This document shows positions 1,884 to 7,897 of a stretch of DNA of 11,664 nucleotides, piece after piece. This DNA is from Pseudomonadota bacterium (GTDB taxonomy: Bacteria; Pseudomonadota; Gammaproteobacteria; Burkholderiales; SG8-39). The stretch spans positions 1-11,664 of the forward strand of contig JAKAIH010000027.1 in NCBI GenBank assembly GCA_021825225.1, written 5' to 3'. How positions within the stretch are numbered: the stretch's first letter is position 1; every line of letters starts with the position of its first letter. A program made the translations under genes and the position numbers. Below the pieces are notes generated by a model, which saw only the letters and a program-made list of their open reading frames with translations, was not told the origin of the DNA and did no database searches.

Positions 1884-1913
1884 ACTATATGATCAGCAAC
1901 GCATATTTGTCAA
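1884..1913 (-). promoter_or_regulatory. Sigma70-type promoter of arsR
   Basis: On the minus strand a perfect -35 TTGACA (1913-1908) is followed by an 18-base spacer and TATAGT (1889-1884), five of six matches to TATAAT. Transcription would start near 1877 and leave a leader of about 28 bases before the arsR ATG at 1848. The palindromic site at 1887-1906 fills the spacer and enters the -10, so a bound protein would block polymerase. Confidence 0.72.
1887..1906. promoter_or_regulatory. Putative ArsR operator on the arsR promoter
   Basis: ATATG-N10-CATAT, a 5-base inverted repeat. On the minus strand it reads ATATGCGT-N7-CATATA, exactly the pattern found again at 2122-2142 before the octaheme gene. 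Its position inside the arsR promoter fits autorepression. The assignment to this ArsR protein is inferred from proximity. Confidence 0.6.
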
Positions 1914-1915
1914 TT

Positions 1916-1935
1916 GCACGGTGATGCACGGTGAT
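1916..1935 (+). repeat. Tandem 10-base direct repeat
   Basis: GCACGGTGAT occurs twice back to back, with GC starting a third copy. The period is about one helical turn, so both copies face the same side of DNA. It lies just upstream of the arsR -35. It could be an activator site or chance slippage; nothing else supports a function. Confidence 0.45.
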
Positions 1936-2070
1936 GCGCCGTGTCCGGGAAGCGCGCGCCGCGCAAATTCGCCGAACCCGCGTTGTAGCAAGTGCCGCAG
2001 TGCGGGTGCATCCAATTTATTGATCGAGTTCATCATCAAAATGGAACCAACGCCCAAAAGCAATTTGGCT

Positions 2071-2083
2071 GATGAGCCTCATC
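2071..2083. promoter_or_regulatory. 13-base palindrome upstream of the octaheme operon
   Basis: GATGAG-C-CTCATC is a perfect six-base inverted repeat with a one-base centre, about 40 bases before the second ArsR-type site and in the AT-rich stretch. It may bind a second regulator. No known consensus is matched with confidence. Confidence 0.3.
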
Positions 2084-2121
2084 CGTTAAAACGATTTTAT
2101 AAAAAAAAAATAAAGTCCAAG

Positions 2122-2148
2122 ATATGCGTATAGCCACATATACGCATA
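2122..2148. promoter_or_regulatory. Putative ArsR operator before the octaheme cytochrome operon
   Basis: A perfect inverted repeat with arms TATGCGTATA (2123-2132) and TATACGCATA (2139-2148) separated by GCCACA. The first 21 bases also fit ATATGCGT-N7-CATATA, the pattern on the arsR promoter. It lies about 110-120 bases before the octaheme start, where a promoter would be expected. A shared site at both divergent promoters strongly suggests one regulator, most simply the adjacent ArsR protein. Confidence 0.65.
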
Positions 2149-2260: not shown

Positions 2261-2269
2261 ATGTCGATA

Positions 2270-3871
2270 GTGCGCACTGGAATATTCATGGCCGCCGTGA
2301 TGGCTTCCATGCTCCTCGTTACCTCGGCCCAAGCCGCAGCCGAGCCGGGAGCCGCCAAGTTGTTGAAGTCTACCGCCGACCACAGCAAATTCAAGGAACT
2401 GAAGCAGGTGTTCAATTCCGGGCCGGAAGTCACCAAGGCCTGCCTCAGCTGCCATACCGAGGCGGCGAAGCAGATCCAGAAGACCGAACACTGGAACTGG
2501 GAATACAAGAGCCCGGAGGGCCAGCTGCTCGGCAAAAGGCACGTCATCAACAACTTCTGTACTTCGATAACCTCGAACGAAGCCGACTGCGCCGCCTGCC
2601 ACATCGGCTACGGCTTCAAGGAAGACAAGGCCTTCTTCGCCACGGAAACCAACGTCGATTGCCTGGTCTGTCACGACACCACCGGCAAGTACAAGAAGCC
2701 CATCGGTTTCGACGGGAACCCGGTCACCAAGAATACGGAATTCCCGCCGGGCTCGGGCAAGATCATCAAGGCGGTCGACCTGCAGTCGATCGCACAGCAC
2801 GTGGGCAAGTCCAGCCGTACCACCTGCGGCGCCTGCCATTTCTACGGCGGCGGCGGCGACGGGGTCAAGCACGGCGACCTGGACAGTTCGCTCGAGGCGC
2901 CGGAGAAGGCGCTCGACGTGCACATGGACGCGGACGGAAACAACTTCGTTTGCGATACCTGCCACGATACGCAGGGCCACCAGGTGCCCGGCAGCCGCTA
3001 CGCGCCGACCGCGCAGGACAAGGGCGAAGCGCATGTGCGCGGCAAGCACTACAACACCAGCCCCACCACCTGCCAGGCCTGCCATGGCCAGGCGCCGCAC
3101 AAGAAAATCGCCAAACTGAACGACCACACCGACAAGGTGGCCTGCCAGACCTGCCATATCCCGAAGTTCGCGCGTGGCGGCGTGCCTACCAAAATGTCCT
3201 GGGACTGGTCGACCTCGGGCAAGCGCGGGCCCGACGGCAAGCCTCTGGTGAAAAAGAATGCCGACGAATACGAGGTCTACAACGGCAAGAAAGGCGACTT
3301 CGTCCTGGCCGAGAACGTGGTGCCTCAATACATCTGGTTCAACGGCAAAGTGAAATACACCCTGCGCGGGGACAAGATCGAGGCCAGCAATCAGCCGGTT
3401 CACATCAACAGCTTCGAAGGCAGCGCGAGCGACGGCAAGTCGCTGATCTGGCCGGTCAAGGTATTTCACGGCAAGCAGGCCTATGACCCGGTGAACAAGA
3501 CGCTGGTAGTAACGCATCTTGCGGGCGAAGACGACACTGCCTATTGGGAGAACCTGAACTGGAAAAAGGCTGTCGCCGCCGGCATGGCCTCGGTCAACGC
3601 GCCCTTCTCCGGCAAGGTCGACTTCATCGAGACCGACAGCACCTGGCCGATCACCCACATGGTGGCGCCGGCCAAGGACGCGCTGCATTGCCAGGACTGC
3701 CATGCAGCCAACGGCAGGCTGGAAAAAGTTCCCGGCATCTACATTCCCGGGCGCGTCAGCGACCACAACCGCTTGCTCGACACCGCGGGCTGGGCAATCG
3801 CGGCGCTGACACTGCTGGGCGTTCTCGGTCACGGCCTTGGGCGCATCGTCCTATCCAAGCGCAAACACTAG
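2270..3871 (+). CDS. Octaheme c-type cytochrome, octaheme tetrathionate reductase (OTR) family, membrane-anchored
   Basis: The protein has 533 residues from GTG 2270, or 536 from ATG 2261; numbers below are for the longer form. A signal peptide ends near SAQA-A (about 26). There are exactly eight CXXCH heme sites: C61, C110, C134, C189, C231, C271, C295 and C477. The wide gap before the last one and the overall length match the OTR family. Purified Shewanella OTR is periplasmic and reduces tetrathionate, nitrite and hydroxylamine in vitro, with a lysine-ligated active heme. K143, K145 and K146, just after the third site, are candidate ligands, but I cannot align them. Unlike soluble OTR, this protein ends in a hydrophobic helix (about 509-531) and the basic tail KRKH, which predicts an inner-membrane anchor. 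The cytochrome b gene starts 12 bases after the stop, so the pair probably exchanges electrons with quinone. The physiological substrate is not established; a metal or extracellular electron-transfer role is also possible. Confidence 0.88.
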   Translation: MRTGIFMAAVMASMLLVTSAQAAAEPGAAKLLKSTADHSKFKELKQVFNSGPEVTKACLSCHTEAAKQIQKTEHWNWEYKSPEGQLLGKRHVINNFCTSITSNEADCAACHIGYGFKEDKAFFATETNVDCLVCHDTTGKYKKPIGFDGNPVTKNTEFPPGSGKIIKAVDLQSIAQHVGKSSRTTCGACHFYGGGGDGVKHGDLDSSLEAPEKALDVHMDADGNNFVCDTCHDTQGHQVPGSRYAPTAQDKGEAHVRGKHYNTSPTTCQACHGQAPHKKIAKLNDHTDKVACQTCHIPKFARGGVPTKMSWDWSTSGKRGPDGKPLVKKNADEYEVYNGKKGDFVLAENVVPQYIWFNGKVKYTLRGDKIEASNQPVHINSFEGSASDGKSLIWPVKVFHGKQAYDPVNKTLVVTHLAGEDDTAYWENLNWKKAVAAGMASVNAPFSGKVDFIETDSTWPITHMVAPAKDALHCQDCHAANGRLEKVPGIYIPGRVSDHNRLLDTAGWAIAALTLLGVLGHGLGRIVLSKRKH

Positions 3872-3883
3872 GAGAAATCAATC

Positions 3884-4534
3884 ATGGCACGCATGTACAT
3901 CTTCAAGCGTTTCGAGCGCTTCTGGCACTGGGCGCAGGCCGCACTCATCATCTTCATGCTCGCGACCGGGTTTGAGATCCACGGCAGCTACACGCTGCTC
4001 GGCTGGCAAAAGGCGGCCGACCTGCACACCACGGCGGCATGGACGCTGATCGGACTGTGGCTGTTCGCGATTTTCTGGCACTTCACTACCGGCGAGTGGA
4101 AGCAGTACATCCCGACGACCAAGAATATCCTTGCCGTCATGAATTACTACTCGGTGGGCATATTCACCGGTGCGCCGCATCCATTCCGCGTCACCCAGCT
4201 CGCCAAGCACAATCCGCTGCAGCGCCTGGCCTATCTGCTGGTCAAGCTGTTCATCAACCCGCTGATCTGGATCAGCGGACTGCTCTATCTGTATTACAAC
4301 CAGCTCGGCGCCACGAAAATCGCCGCGCTCGCCGGCCTGCAGCTCGGCTCGATCGCCCTGGTGCACACCGCGGCGGCTTTCATGATGCTGGCCTTCCTTA
4401 TCGGCCACCTCTACCTGTCCACTACCGGCCATACGCCGCTCGCGCACATCAAGGCGATGATCACCGGCTGGGAGGATCAGCACGAAGCGGAGCCGGAGCT
4501 GGCGCAGGCCGCTACTCCTGGCCGGCGCGGCTAG
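3884..4534 (+). CDS. Cytochrome b (b561 / hydrogenase-type), electron partner of the octaheme protein
   Basis: A 216-residue membrane protein with about four hydrophobic helices (roughly 14-30, 48-67, 114-137 and 155-180). Histidines suited to ligating b hemes are H15 (in FWHWAQ), H48 (DLHTT), H66 (FWHFTTG), H161 (LVHTAA) and H175 (IGHLYL). This is the layout of the HyaC/PhsC-like cytochrome b561 superfamily, which passes electrons between quinones and periplasmic redox proteins. A good ribosome site (AGGAGA, 3871-3876) precedes the ATG by seven bases. The gene begins 12 bases after the octaheme stop, so one transcript is very likely. The hydrophilic tail after about 185 is probably cytoplasmic. 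The direction of electron flow, toward tetrathionate reduction or away from an electron donor, cannot be read from the sequence. Confidence 0.88.
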   Translation: MARMYIFKRFERFWHWAQAALIIFMLATGFEIHGSYTLLGWQKAADLHTTAAWTLIGLWLFAIFWHFTTGEWKQYIPTTKNILAVMNYYSVGIFTGAPHPFRVTQLAKHNPLQRLAYLLVKLFINPLIWISGLLYLYYNQLGATKIAALAGLQLGSIALVHTAAAFMMLAFLIGHLYLSTTGHTPLAHIKAMITGWEDQHEAEPELAQAATPGRRG

Positions 4535-4648: not shown

Positions 4649-6475
4649 ATGAATAAGAAGTTTTCGAAGCGCTTGCTCGTGGCGCTGGTTGCAGGGATCT
4701 GGCTGCCGCTCTCGGCGCATGCCGCCGACGAAGCGCTGATGAAGAAGATAGACGCGCTGTCGAGGGAAATCGAGCAGCTGAAACAGCAGGTCCGCGCCAA
4801 CGAGGAAAAAGCCGGCAAGGCGGTCGAACAATTGAAGAGCGAGACCAAGAAAGCCTACGCGAGCGACATCGAAGATCTGAAGGGCCAGGTCAAGCAGGCC
4901 CAGGGCAAGTCGCTCGGCAAGTGGCTGACCATCGGCGGCGATTATCGCTTCCGCATCGACTCCATGAAAGGGGAAACCAAGACCTTCACGGACGTGAATG
5001 CGACCTTCGCCAACGTACAGCAGAAACTGCAGGCCGATTTCTTCGCCAATCCGTCGACCGTAGCCGGCTCGTCCGCGTATTTCGGCGCGCCCGCCGCAGG
5101 CGGCATGTCTACGGCCGGAGCGCTCAGCGCCCTGATGAATTTTTCCCAACAGATGGCTGCGGTGAGAACCGTCGACCAGGCCAACGCCTTTGTCGCCAAT
5201 CCCGGGAATGCGGGTCTGATCCGCGGCATCGGCGGTTTCGCCGCCCAGGTTCCCGCGTACAAACCGGAAAACACCACGCTGTACACCAATCGATTCGGTC
5301 TCGACCTTCACGCCAAGGCGACCGAGGACGTAACCGTCAATGCGCGCCTGCTGGCATATAAGATATTCGGCTCCCAGGACGAGAACGGCATAGACAATTC
5401 CGGCAACGCGCCGTATTTCGCCGACCGCGTCGGCGTGTTCGACGGCACGCTCGGTCACGTGCCGTCCAGCAGTTACCTGAACGTCGACCGCGTATATGCC
5501 ACCTGGAGCAACATCGCCGACAGGGATATGTGGTTTTCGGTCGGCCGTCGCCCCTCGACCAATGGCGCGCCCAGCAACCTGAAATTGAATAATCCCCGCC
5601 CCGGCAACGGCGGCACGCCGTCGCTGCTGGTCGATTATGCGTTCGATGGCATGACTTTCGGTTACGCCCCGGACATCGATGCCCTGCCCGGAGCGTACGG
5701 CAAGGTCTGCTACGGACGCGGATTCGAGAGCGGCTTCCGCAAAACGCCGGGGAATTCCCTCTCCGATACCGACATGCTGGGCATCGCGCTGATCCCGATC
5801 GATACCGATCCGCTGCGCGTCTGGCTGCAGTGGAACCGCGGTTACAACATTTTCGATGCGCCGACCATGAGCAACACCTACTACGGCAATACCTCGCCCA
5901 AGATAAATCTCGGCGACATCGAATGGTGGGGCGGCGGTGTCATGAGCACGCTGAAAAAAGTGGGCCCGGGCGACCTCAATCTGTTCGCGGACGTCGCCTT
6001 GAGCGTAACCCATCCGAATTCGAATGTTTCATCCCAATTCGGATTCCAGGGGCTGCTGACCGGCAGCTTCTTCTCGCCGGAAGCGCCGACCAGCAGGAAG
6101 GGCAGCGCGATCGCCCTGGGTGCGCGCTACGACCTCCCGTCGAAAACCAAATTGGGCTTCGAGTACAACCACGGGTCGAAGAACTGGATCACCTTTGCGC
6201 CTGCCGCCGACGACATGTGGACATCGAAGGTCGGAACCCGCGGCAATGTGTACGAAGCCTATCTGATCCAGGAGCTTGCGAAGAAGCCGATTTCCTCGTT
6301 CTTCAGCAAAGCGTTCTTCCGCCTCGGCTATCAGTACTACGACTTCCAGTACACCGGCAGCAACAACTGGGTCGGCGCGCCGGTGAAGATTTCGGATGTC
6401 AATGGCCAGATGATGACCATGACCCCGCTGCAAAAGGCCTACAACCTGTATGCGACGTTCGAAGTGAAATTCTGA
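4649..6475 (+). CDS. Outer-membrane porin-like beta-barrel protein with N-terminal coiled coil (possibly DUF3373 family)
   Basis: A 608-residue exported protein. The signal peptide ends at SAHA-A (residue 25). Residues about 27-85 are charged heptad-like sequence (KKIDALSREIEQLKQQVR and similar), a probable coiled coil in the periplasm. From about 90 on it alternates short aromatic-rich strands and polar turns, for example WLTIGGDYRFRID and LGFEYNHG, and it ends in phenylalanine (TFEVKF), the usual outer-membrane barrel signal. It resembles the DUF3373 group of putative porins found in metal- and sulfur-respiring bacteria; I recall this likeness and could not test it. GGGGAG at 4637-4642 gives good spacing to the ATG. 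It follows cytochrome b after 114 bases, so it may belong to the same operon. Likely roles are passage of substrate, or a sheath for electron transfer across the outer membrane, although no outer-face cytochrome is present nearby. Confidence 0.75.
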   Translation: MNKKFSKRLLVALVAGIWLPLSAHAADEALMKKIDALSREIEQLKQQVRANEEKAGKAVEQLKSETKKAYASDIEDLKGQVKQAQGKSLGKWLTIGGDYRFRIDSMKGETKTFTDVNATFANVQQKLQADFFANPSTVAGSSAYFGAPAAGGMSTAGALSALMNFSQQMAAVRTVDQANAFVANPGNAGLIRGIGGFAAQVPAYKPENTTLYTNRFGLDLHAKATEDVTVNARLLAYKIFGSQDENGIDNSGNAPYFADRVGVFDGTLGHVPSSSYLNVDRVYATWSNIADRDMWFSVGRRPSTNGAPSNLKLNNPRPGNGGTPSLLVDYAFDGMTFGYAPDIDALPGAYGKVCYGRGFESGFRKTPGNSLSDTDMLGIALIPIDTDPLRVWLQWNRGYNIFDAPTMSNTYYGNTSPKINLGDIEWWGGGVMSTLKKVGPGDLNLFADVALSVTHPNSNVSSQFGFQGLLTGSFFSPEAPTSRKGSAIALGARYDLPSKTKLGFEYNHGSKNWITFAPAADDMWTSKVGTRGNVYEAYLIQELAKKPISSFFSKAFFRLGYQYYDFQYTGSNNWVGAPVKISDVNGQMMTMTPLQKAYNLYATFEVKF

Positions 6476-7075: not shown

Positions 7076-7897
7076 ATGGATGCAAATTCCATGATCAAAG
7101 CAGCGCGCAAAAGCGCTTTTGGCCTGGTGCTGATCGTCGCCGCCGCGGGCGCCGTACCGGCCGCGGCGGGCGGAGAGGTCCGAGCTTTGGCAGTGCCGAT
7201 ACCGAGCGAACTGCCGCCGGGCGAACTGGGCAAGACCGTGGCCTTGGGGCGCGATATCGTCAACCACACCAACACGCACCCATTGAGCCGGCAATACGTC
7301 GGGAACAACCTCGCTTGTACCTCCTGCCATCTCGACGCCGGCACCAAGCCGGGGGCGCTGAGTTTCCTCGGTGCAGCTTCCGCCTACCCCACCTACACGC
7401 CGCGGGAAAAGCAGGTCATCACTCTGGAAGACCGCAACCTCAACTGTTTCATGCGCAGCATGAATGGCCGGCGCCCGCCCAACGGCAGCGCAGTCTCGGT
7501 GGCCATCGCCGCCTATATCACCTGGCTGTCGGAAGGCTATCCAGTCAAGATGAGCCTTAAAGGCCCGTTCGGCCCCAACGCGTCGCCGTCCTTGAACATA
7601 GACGAGGACGACGGGGACGTGCCGCGTGGCAAGACGCTGTACGGCTCCGCCTGCGCCAATTGCCACGGCAGCGATGGGGCGGGTGTCGGGAAATTTCCGC
7701 CGGTATGGGGCTCCCAGTCTTACAACGACGGCGCGGGCATGGCGTCGGACCTCAAGCTGGCTACCTACCTCAGGAACACCATGCCATTGGGCGATCCCAT
7801 CCTGAGCGACCAGGACGCACTGGACATCGCGGCTTATGTAAATGCACAGCCCCGTCCGAGGTTTGTGCTGCAGGAGCATTTGGGCAGCGGAAAATGA
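7076..7897 (+). CDS. tsdA: TsdA-type diheme cytochrome c (thiosulfate dehydrogenase / tetrathionate reductase)
   Basis: A 273-residue periplasmic cytochrome with a signal peptide (hydrophobic about 14-30). Heme 1 is at CTSCH (81-85). About 40 residues later comes LNCFMRSMNG with C124, matching the unusual cysteine axial ligand of heme 1 in Allochromatium TsdA. Heme 2 is at CANCH (193-197). NDGAGM (M222) and NTMPLG (M236) are its likely methionine region, also as in TsdA. TsdA joins two thiosulfates to tetrathionate and can run in reverse; which direction dominates varies by species. Length fits the family. TGGAGG at 7065-7070 sits five bases before the ATG. The next gene starts inside its stop codon (ATGA overlap), so translation is coupled. 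No TsdB diheme partner lies next to it, so electrons must go elsewhere, possibly to or from the nearby octaheme or cytochrome b proteins. Confidence 0.88.
   Translation: MDANSMIKAARKSAFGLVLIVAAAGAVPAAAGGEVRALAVPIPSELPPGELGKTVALGRDIVNHTNTHPLSRQYVGNNLACTSCHLDAGTKPGALSFLGAASAYPTYTPREKQVITLEDRNLNCFMRSMNGRRPPNGSAVSVAIAAYITWLSEGYPVKMSLKGPFGPNASPSLNIDEDDGDVPRGKTLYGSACANCHGSDGAGVGKFPPVWGSQSYNDGAGMASDLKLATYLRNTMPLGDPILSDQDALDIAAYVNAQPRPRFVLQEHLGSGK

Follow-up and report, generated by a model that had tools for sequence, protein, structure and literature searches.

A candidate operator shared by octaheme cytochrome operons and sox-linked ArsR regulators in Burkholderiales

We analyzed a contig of 11,664 nucleotides (JAKAIH010000027.1; "the window" below is this whole stretch) from a Burkholderiales genome of the SG8-39 lineage, whose assembly (GCA_021825225.1, the home genome) has 3,129,124 bases in 544 contigs and is 85% complete. 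On the reverse strand, positions 1477 to 1848 code for an ArsR/SmtB-family regulator of 123 amino acids with cysteines at positions 31, 86 and 90. Its scores for PF01022 (49.5 bits, cut-off 22) and NF033788 (77.9 bits, cut-off 55) bear out the identity given to it in a sequence-only reading of the same DNA. The same holds for the gene on the forward strand at 2261 to 3871, named there as octaheme tetrathionate reductase-like, which codes for an octaheme c-type cytochrome of the tetrathionate-reductase family (OTR) with eight CxxCH motifs and 607.3 bits against TIGR04315 (cut-off 375). The OTR protein matched the octaheme tetrathionate reductase chain 1sp3, presumably from Shewanella, at 362 bits over 442 residues with eight CxxCH, and by hand count its Lys203 aligns to Lys153 of 1sp3, which we take to be the ligand of the active haem. 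Substrates of the family are tetrathionate (or nitrite and hydroxylamine), and the window protein is predicted to act as one of its enzymes. Unlike in the 1sp3 system, an ArsR-type site precedes the gene and a DUF3373 gene comes after it.

Downstream on the same strand are a cytochrome b561-type membrane subunit (3884 to 4534; PF01292, 72.7 bits) and the DUF3373 protein (4649 to 6475; PF11853, 501.6 bits), which is putatively porin-like and whose gene probably belongs to the same operon as the octaheme gene; the octaheme-DUF3373 synteny is kept in three relatives (L071, L077 and L085). The window also codes for a 107-aa protein with no Pfam match and, again on the same strand, for a SoxA/TsdA-type dihaem cytochrome c (7076 to 7897; PF21342, 44.9 bits, two CxxCH) of uncertain membership in the operon. 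Genes for a YeeE/YedE sulfur transporter, a rhodanese or both are present at 12 of the 18 OTR-linked ArsR loci. The OTR operon runs on into genes of these kinds in L072, L074, L076, L078, L079, L080, L082, L087, L088, L089, L090 and L092, and in the window and L071 it continues instead with the DUF3373 and SoxA/TsdA-type genes. A second octaheme gene of the home genome (L104; G000:C90:5618-6916) is 50% identical and lacks the dyad described below.

The promoter of arsR, TTGACA and TATAGT separated by an 18-bp spacer (11 of 12 matches), is found at 1913 to 1884 on the reverse strand, and just upstream of its -35 the sequence TGCACGGTGA occurs twice as a tandem direct repeat (1915 to 1934). The sequence-only reading had placed a motif within the spacer and -10 of this promoter and again before the octaheme gene; the window scan located exact copies of ATATGCGT-N7-CATATA at 1886-1906 (reverse strand), overlapping spacer and -10 as claimed, and at 2122-2142 (forward strand). 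Near the octaheme-side copy no sigma-70 match was found. The sole forward-strand match between 1700 and 2300 (1866-1893) is weak and distant, so a promoter can be assigned to arsR only. Allowing up to three mismatches, the window contains five matches to the motif where 0.29 are expected from shuffles, three of them overlapping one another at the octaheme-side site. In the whole home assembly the two window copies are the only exact matches. With up to three mismatches the assembly gave 15 matches on the forward search against 20 for the reversed control, which is no enrichment, and we rejected mismatch-tolerant searches with the motif as a way of tracing the regulon through a genome.

Comparison with relatives indicated that the asymmetric motif is a slice of a symmetric operator, a dyad of 20 bp (ATATGCG-N6-CGCATAT). 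This pattern was derived from the sites upstream of OTR genes in the family genomes and tested afterwards. The candidate ArsR operator at the arsR promoter (ATATGCGTTGCTGATCATAT, 1887 to 1906, reverse strand) differs from the dyad at two positions and has a degenerate right half, and the one before the octaheme gene (ATATGCGTATAGCCACATAT, 2122 to 2141, forward strand) differs at one and is centred 129 bp 5' of the octaheme ATG. The perfect 10-6-10 inverted repeat described earlier at the second copy was recovered by the repeat search at 2123 to 2148; it overlaps the operator and makes use of a third half-site, ACGCATA. We also considered this repeat as a terminator and discarded the idea, no terminator-like site being found. 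When the arsR-OTR intergenic regions of four genomes were aligned, all the invariant runs of at least five bases fell within two blocks, one being the arsR promoter and operator and the other the OTR-side operator with the third half-site, the latter kept in all four with one change in G012. These regions also share a weakly conserved GAT...ATC element (approximately 2069-2083 in the window). It precedes the OTR-side operator by some 40-50 bp and could be an activator site.

Across the 98 genomes of the family we found eight exact dyads in eight genomes and none of the control pattern, and all eight were located before an OTR gene. The home genome, its two sites having one and two mismatches, is not among them. 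At two mismatches the dyad was also more frequent than the control in many genomes (18 against 2 in G003, 13 against 2 in G025, 9 against 4 in the home genome); some of these lack a close ArsR and such matches are therefore not specific. An OTR relative was detected in 24 of the 98 genomes (E <= 1e-40) and a close ArsR relative in 25 (E <= 1e-30). OTR genes of the window's type, defined by 59% identity or more, number 20 in the family. For 18 of them the genome also codes for a close ArsR, and the dyad at up to three mismatches stands 70-137 bp before the start of 17 of the 18; it is absent from the remaining one (L092), as well as from the two genes in genomes with no close ArsR (G050 and G004). 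G001 has just one dyad, with a distant OTR on one side and a divergent ArsR on the other, and in G002 the ArsR and OTR genes are on separate contigs with the site present at both.

At the level of the order, OTR was found at E <= 1e-150 in 34 of 399 genomes, two of them family members. In the 32 outside the family no ArsR match reached 1e-30, and the dyad appeared at none of the 28 OTR genes scanned there (of 38 OTR places, those given loci; one, L250, contains Ns). Five of these genomes have an ArsR homologue of 46-49% identity beside soxC, and the OTR genes examined from this group (L235, L250 and L261) are without the dyad. A further locus, L158, came from a scan of GTDB representatives; its ArsR and OTR genes share a contig, and it has the dyad at two mismatches. 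Altogether, the dyad at up to three mismatches precedes 18 of the 19 window-type OTR genes whose genome has a close ArsR and 0 of the 30 whose genome has none (Fisher value 1.6e-12, which ignores kinship), a contrast confounded with kinship in that only two of the 30 belong to family members. Six other OTR loci were left out of this count. Two are more distant OTR genes beside ArsR, L097 with an exact dyad and L098 with four mismatches, and the other four are paralogues without the dyad (L104-L107), two of them, about 50% identical, in ArsR-bearing genomes (L104 in the home genome, L105 in G007). Different dyads, ATATTAGCAAAAGCTAATAT and ATATTAGTAGTTGACTATAT, were seen 36 bp before the paralogous OTR gene of G007 (L105) and before ArsR in L263 and L264, and are possibly the operators of a related ArsR subgroup.

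Absence of the motif from relatives that keep the gene pair had been named in advance as evidence against control of both by this ArsR, and what we found there was its presence in 18 of 19 cases. The earlier proposal that ArsR controls both itself and the octaheme/cytochrome b operon is thus well supported by comparison, as a prediction from sequence, since the dyad co-occurs with the regulator across relatives; on the arsR side the support from OTR-linked relatives is weaker, the site being present at 6 of 17 of their ArsR promoters with up to two mismatches and at 12 of 17 with up to three, and missing from those of L087 and L088.

We extended the analysis of ArsR promoters with the scan of GTDB representatives, which used the ArsR alignment as query and from which 80 of 184 loci were kept. 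They come from Burkholderiales and other Betaproteobacteria, including Cupriavidus, Pandoraea, Rhizobacter, Zeimonas and Methylibium. The resulting set has 71 distinct ArsR sequences out of 107, of which 70 have a usable upstream region; the exception is a second ArsR relative (57%) of the home genome that lacks Cys86 and lies near a contig edge (L101; G000:C233:4490-4840). In the 220 bp upstream of ArsR the dyad, fixed beforehand, was found with up to one mismatch in 37 of the 70 (0.01 expected), with up to two in 50 (0.02 expected) and with up to three in 59 (0.45 expected). These expectations are from single-base shuffles, and the rate in the home genome would give about 0.04 instead of 0.02. 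By origin, the site at up to two mismatches is present at 12 of 25 family loci and 38 of 45 from the GTDB scan. Six promoters (L087, L088, L099, L171, L175 and L181) are without a site, their best matches having five to six mismatches.

Most of these regulators neighbour sulfur-oxidation genes. At least two sox genes are on the locus in 46 of the 70 and in 40 of the 45 distinct sequences added by the GTDB scan, and 40 of the 46 sox-linked ArsR promoters have the dyad at up to two mismatches, a better match than at the OTR-linked ones (6 of 17). Pfam identified SoxY, SoxZ, SoxA/TsdA cytochrome, molybdopterin oxidoreductase, cytochromes c and a 5'-nucleotidase C-terminal domain at the family sox loci; the names SoxC, SoxD, SoxX and SoxB are our own assignment from Pfam matches and gene order. 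In the ArsR tree, built from few columns and with weak inner forks, OTR-linked and sox-linked proteins share a clade of 30 rows (support 100/98). The OTR label changes five times, at least three of them forced by well-supported branches, indicating that the partners were exchanged. The same ArsR clade and operator at the sox clusters of other Burkholderiales mean that the ArsR-octaheme couple is not an isolated pair. Within the window itself no sox cluster adjoins arsR. SoxB was found in 78 of the 98 family genomes; that of the home genome is in two fragments. Control of sox by the dyad in the window's own genus was considered and is not claimed: in the home genome and its relatives, 12 sox regions (nine from OTR-bearing genomes) were without it at up to two mismatches; seven of them include sequence upstream of soxY and in five the contig ends inside the sox cluster. 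Three metagenome bins in the set (L152, L165 and L191) are titled Bordetella parapertussis or Klebsiella pneumoniae and contain sox clusters of betaproteobacterial kind, and these titles look wrong.

A second conserved element was apparent at many of the OTR promoters. FNR-type class II promoters have a TTGAT-N4-ATCAA box about 30 bp before the -10. The dyad is present in 18 OTR promoters, those of 17 genes of the window's type and that of L097. In 14 of these 18 a box of this type (at least 8 of 10 positions) follows closely downstream of the dyad, where shuffles give 0.26, the pattern having been chosen after seeing the sequences. The distance from the box to the dyad centre is 18 bp in 12 of the 18 (L072, L074, L076, L078, L081, L082, L084, L087, L088, L089, L090 and L093), 20 bp in L079 and 29 bp in L097, and L158 has the same 18-bp spacing. 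In L074, L081 and L093 we counted by eye 23 bases from the box to a TAAT hexamer. The box beside the dyad is absent in the sublineage of the window (the window, L071, L077 and L085), where the third half-site is present instead. Such a box also occurs in L092 and L102, both without the dyad. The 18-bp spacing suggests joint control by oxygen and sulfur in the sister lineages.

The cysteines of the regulator are nearly invariant: among the 71 ArsR sequences Cys31 is conserved in 71, Cys86 in 70 and Cys90 in 69. The protein resembles BigR and SqrR in its ArsR fold and DNA-binding region, the BigR chain 3pqj being matched at 43 bits, but the score for the BigR model NF040642 was 47 bits (cut-off 155) and the sensing cysteine of BigR, which we take to be Cys42, aligns to His28. 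None of the 71 sequences has a Cys at position 28 or at position ~94, the two positions of the sulfane-sulfur repressors (the first from the BigR alignment, the second beyond it, by numbering extended without gaps). Cys31 is three residues from the first of these positions, and Cys90 and Cys86 are four and eight from the second. TsoR, an NCBIfam name, was rejected as an identity, the match being below cut-off; the paper on TsoR reportedly concerns antibiotic resistance in Proteus. A search of a plasmid collection gave no match at 1e-20.

The closest known case is SoxR of Hyphomicrobium denitrificans, Paracoccus and Pseudaminobacter, an ArsR-family regulator linked to sox that binds promoter-operator regions with repeats (PMC10451225, PMC11582611). 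Both SoxR and the clade of the window ArsR are small ArsR-family proteins with sox linkage, and a YeeE-type transporter gene accompanies SoxR. SoxR, SqrR, BigR, sHdrR, YgaV and HlyU share two cysteines (Cys50 and Cys116 in Hyphomicrobium numbering), and many shdr-linked ArsR proteins without them may act differently (PMC12423496). The window ArsR has no Cys at the positions corresponding to Cys50 and Cys116, as taken from the BigR alignment, and unlike SoxR its candidate target is the octaheme operon. In their accessible parts, the SoxR papers (PMC10451225, PMC12423496, PMC11582611) cover Alphaproteobacteria, mention Sox systems in Burkholderiaceae, and contain neither a Burkholderiales operator consensus nor an octaheme target. 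In the genome paper of Cupriavidus metallidurans soxR is a MerR-type gene, and the text available notes no ArsR at sox (PMC2864759). Our literature search, with most subscription papers outside its reach, returned none naming ArsR together with the full term octaheme tetrathionate reductase.

The sites, their conservation, their co-occurrence with the regulator and the identities of the genes are direct observations. From the relatives' site before sulfur-oxidation genes it follows that sulfur compounds probably turn on the octaheme enzyme, the sulfur signal being suggested by gene neighbourhood and cysteines, and we read the pattern as OTR operons having putatively adopted the operator of a SoxR-like, sulfur-responsive repressor. 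We consider it probable that such a repressor binds the dyads at arsR and at the octaheme operon and is released by reactive sulfur species. The 123-aa protein would be a repressor of this kind, of a Burkholderiales type, and we infer that its dimer would bind the 20-bp dyad and repress rather than activate. At arsR, where the dyad takes up the -35/-10 spacer and reaches into the -10, the bound protein would shut off its own gene, and at the second dyad, 129 bp before the octaheme ATG, it would keep the octaheme/cytochrome b operon off. For the inducer and the involvement of FNR we infer that Cys31, along with Cys86, Cys90 or both, would react with a reactive sulfur species, a modification releasing ArsR and turning the operon on, and that in sister lineages, with the operator 18 bp from the FNR-type box, a double condition of sulfur signal and low oxygen would apply. 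Several results tell against this account: the cysteines are not at the places used by known sulfane-sulfur repressors, the octaheme side of the window shows neither a nearby sigma-70 match nor an FNR-type box, the OTR genes L092, L104 and L105 are without the dyad although their genomes have the ArsR, and the site is weaker at OTR-linked than at sox-linked arsR promoters, with none at L087, L088 and L099.

That the same regulator and operators respond to a signal other than sulfur, the protein being an ArsR/SmtB-family sensor of a metal, of arsenite or of general redox state, we hold to be unlikely. The three near-invariant cysteines are possible ligands of a thiophilic metal and the matching NCBI model NF033788 is named metalloregulator, but two of the four alpha-5 zinc ligands of SmtB, which we take to fall on D79, A81, R92 and E95 of the window protein, are lost, and C61 of SmtB falls on T36 (ungapped alignment, counted by hand and extended by one residue). 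Besides, the genes recognised nearby are sox, YeeE-type and rhodanese genes (ars and efflux genes being outside the search). There is rather little to be said for ArsR activating the octaheme operon, for example by assisting a sigma factor or an FNR-type protein from a position upstream. The dyad of the sister lineages is indeed upstream of the FNR-type box and not over a -10, and around the octaheme-side site no sigma-70 promoter can be seen; however, at arsR's own promoter the dyad overlaps the -10, the usual layout of a repressor, and the characterised SoxR of Hyphomicrobium represses (PMC10451225). That the octaheme-side repeat is the site of an unrelated regulator or an RNA hairpin, with a coincidental match at arsR, is highly improbable, for although there are only two exact motif copies in one genome and the arsR copy has two mismatches and a degenerate right half, the dyad co-occurs with the regulator and recurs at ArsR promoters, all eight exact dyads are at OTR genes, OTR genes in genomes without a close ArsR have it in 0 of 30, and no terminator-like site was found.

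Returning to the sulfur-responsive repressor, a wider version of it seems to us possible, though short of an even chance: a distinct sulfur-sensing ArsR class, with a thiol switch shifted along the helices to Cys31 and Cys86/Cys90, would act on Burkholderiales sox clusters and would have switched in this betaproteobacterial family to the octaheme operon, with FNR-type co-control in most lineages. If so, expression of the octaheme operon would require both sulfur species and low oxygen. The analysis provides octaheme tetrathionate-reductase operons with a defined candidate operator, a candidate regulator and a candidate class of inducer. It also predicts the operator of the ArsR of sox clusters in Burkholderiales, including Cupriavidus, and indicates that sulfur species may be sensed there through a different cysteine layout.
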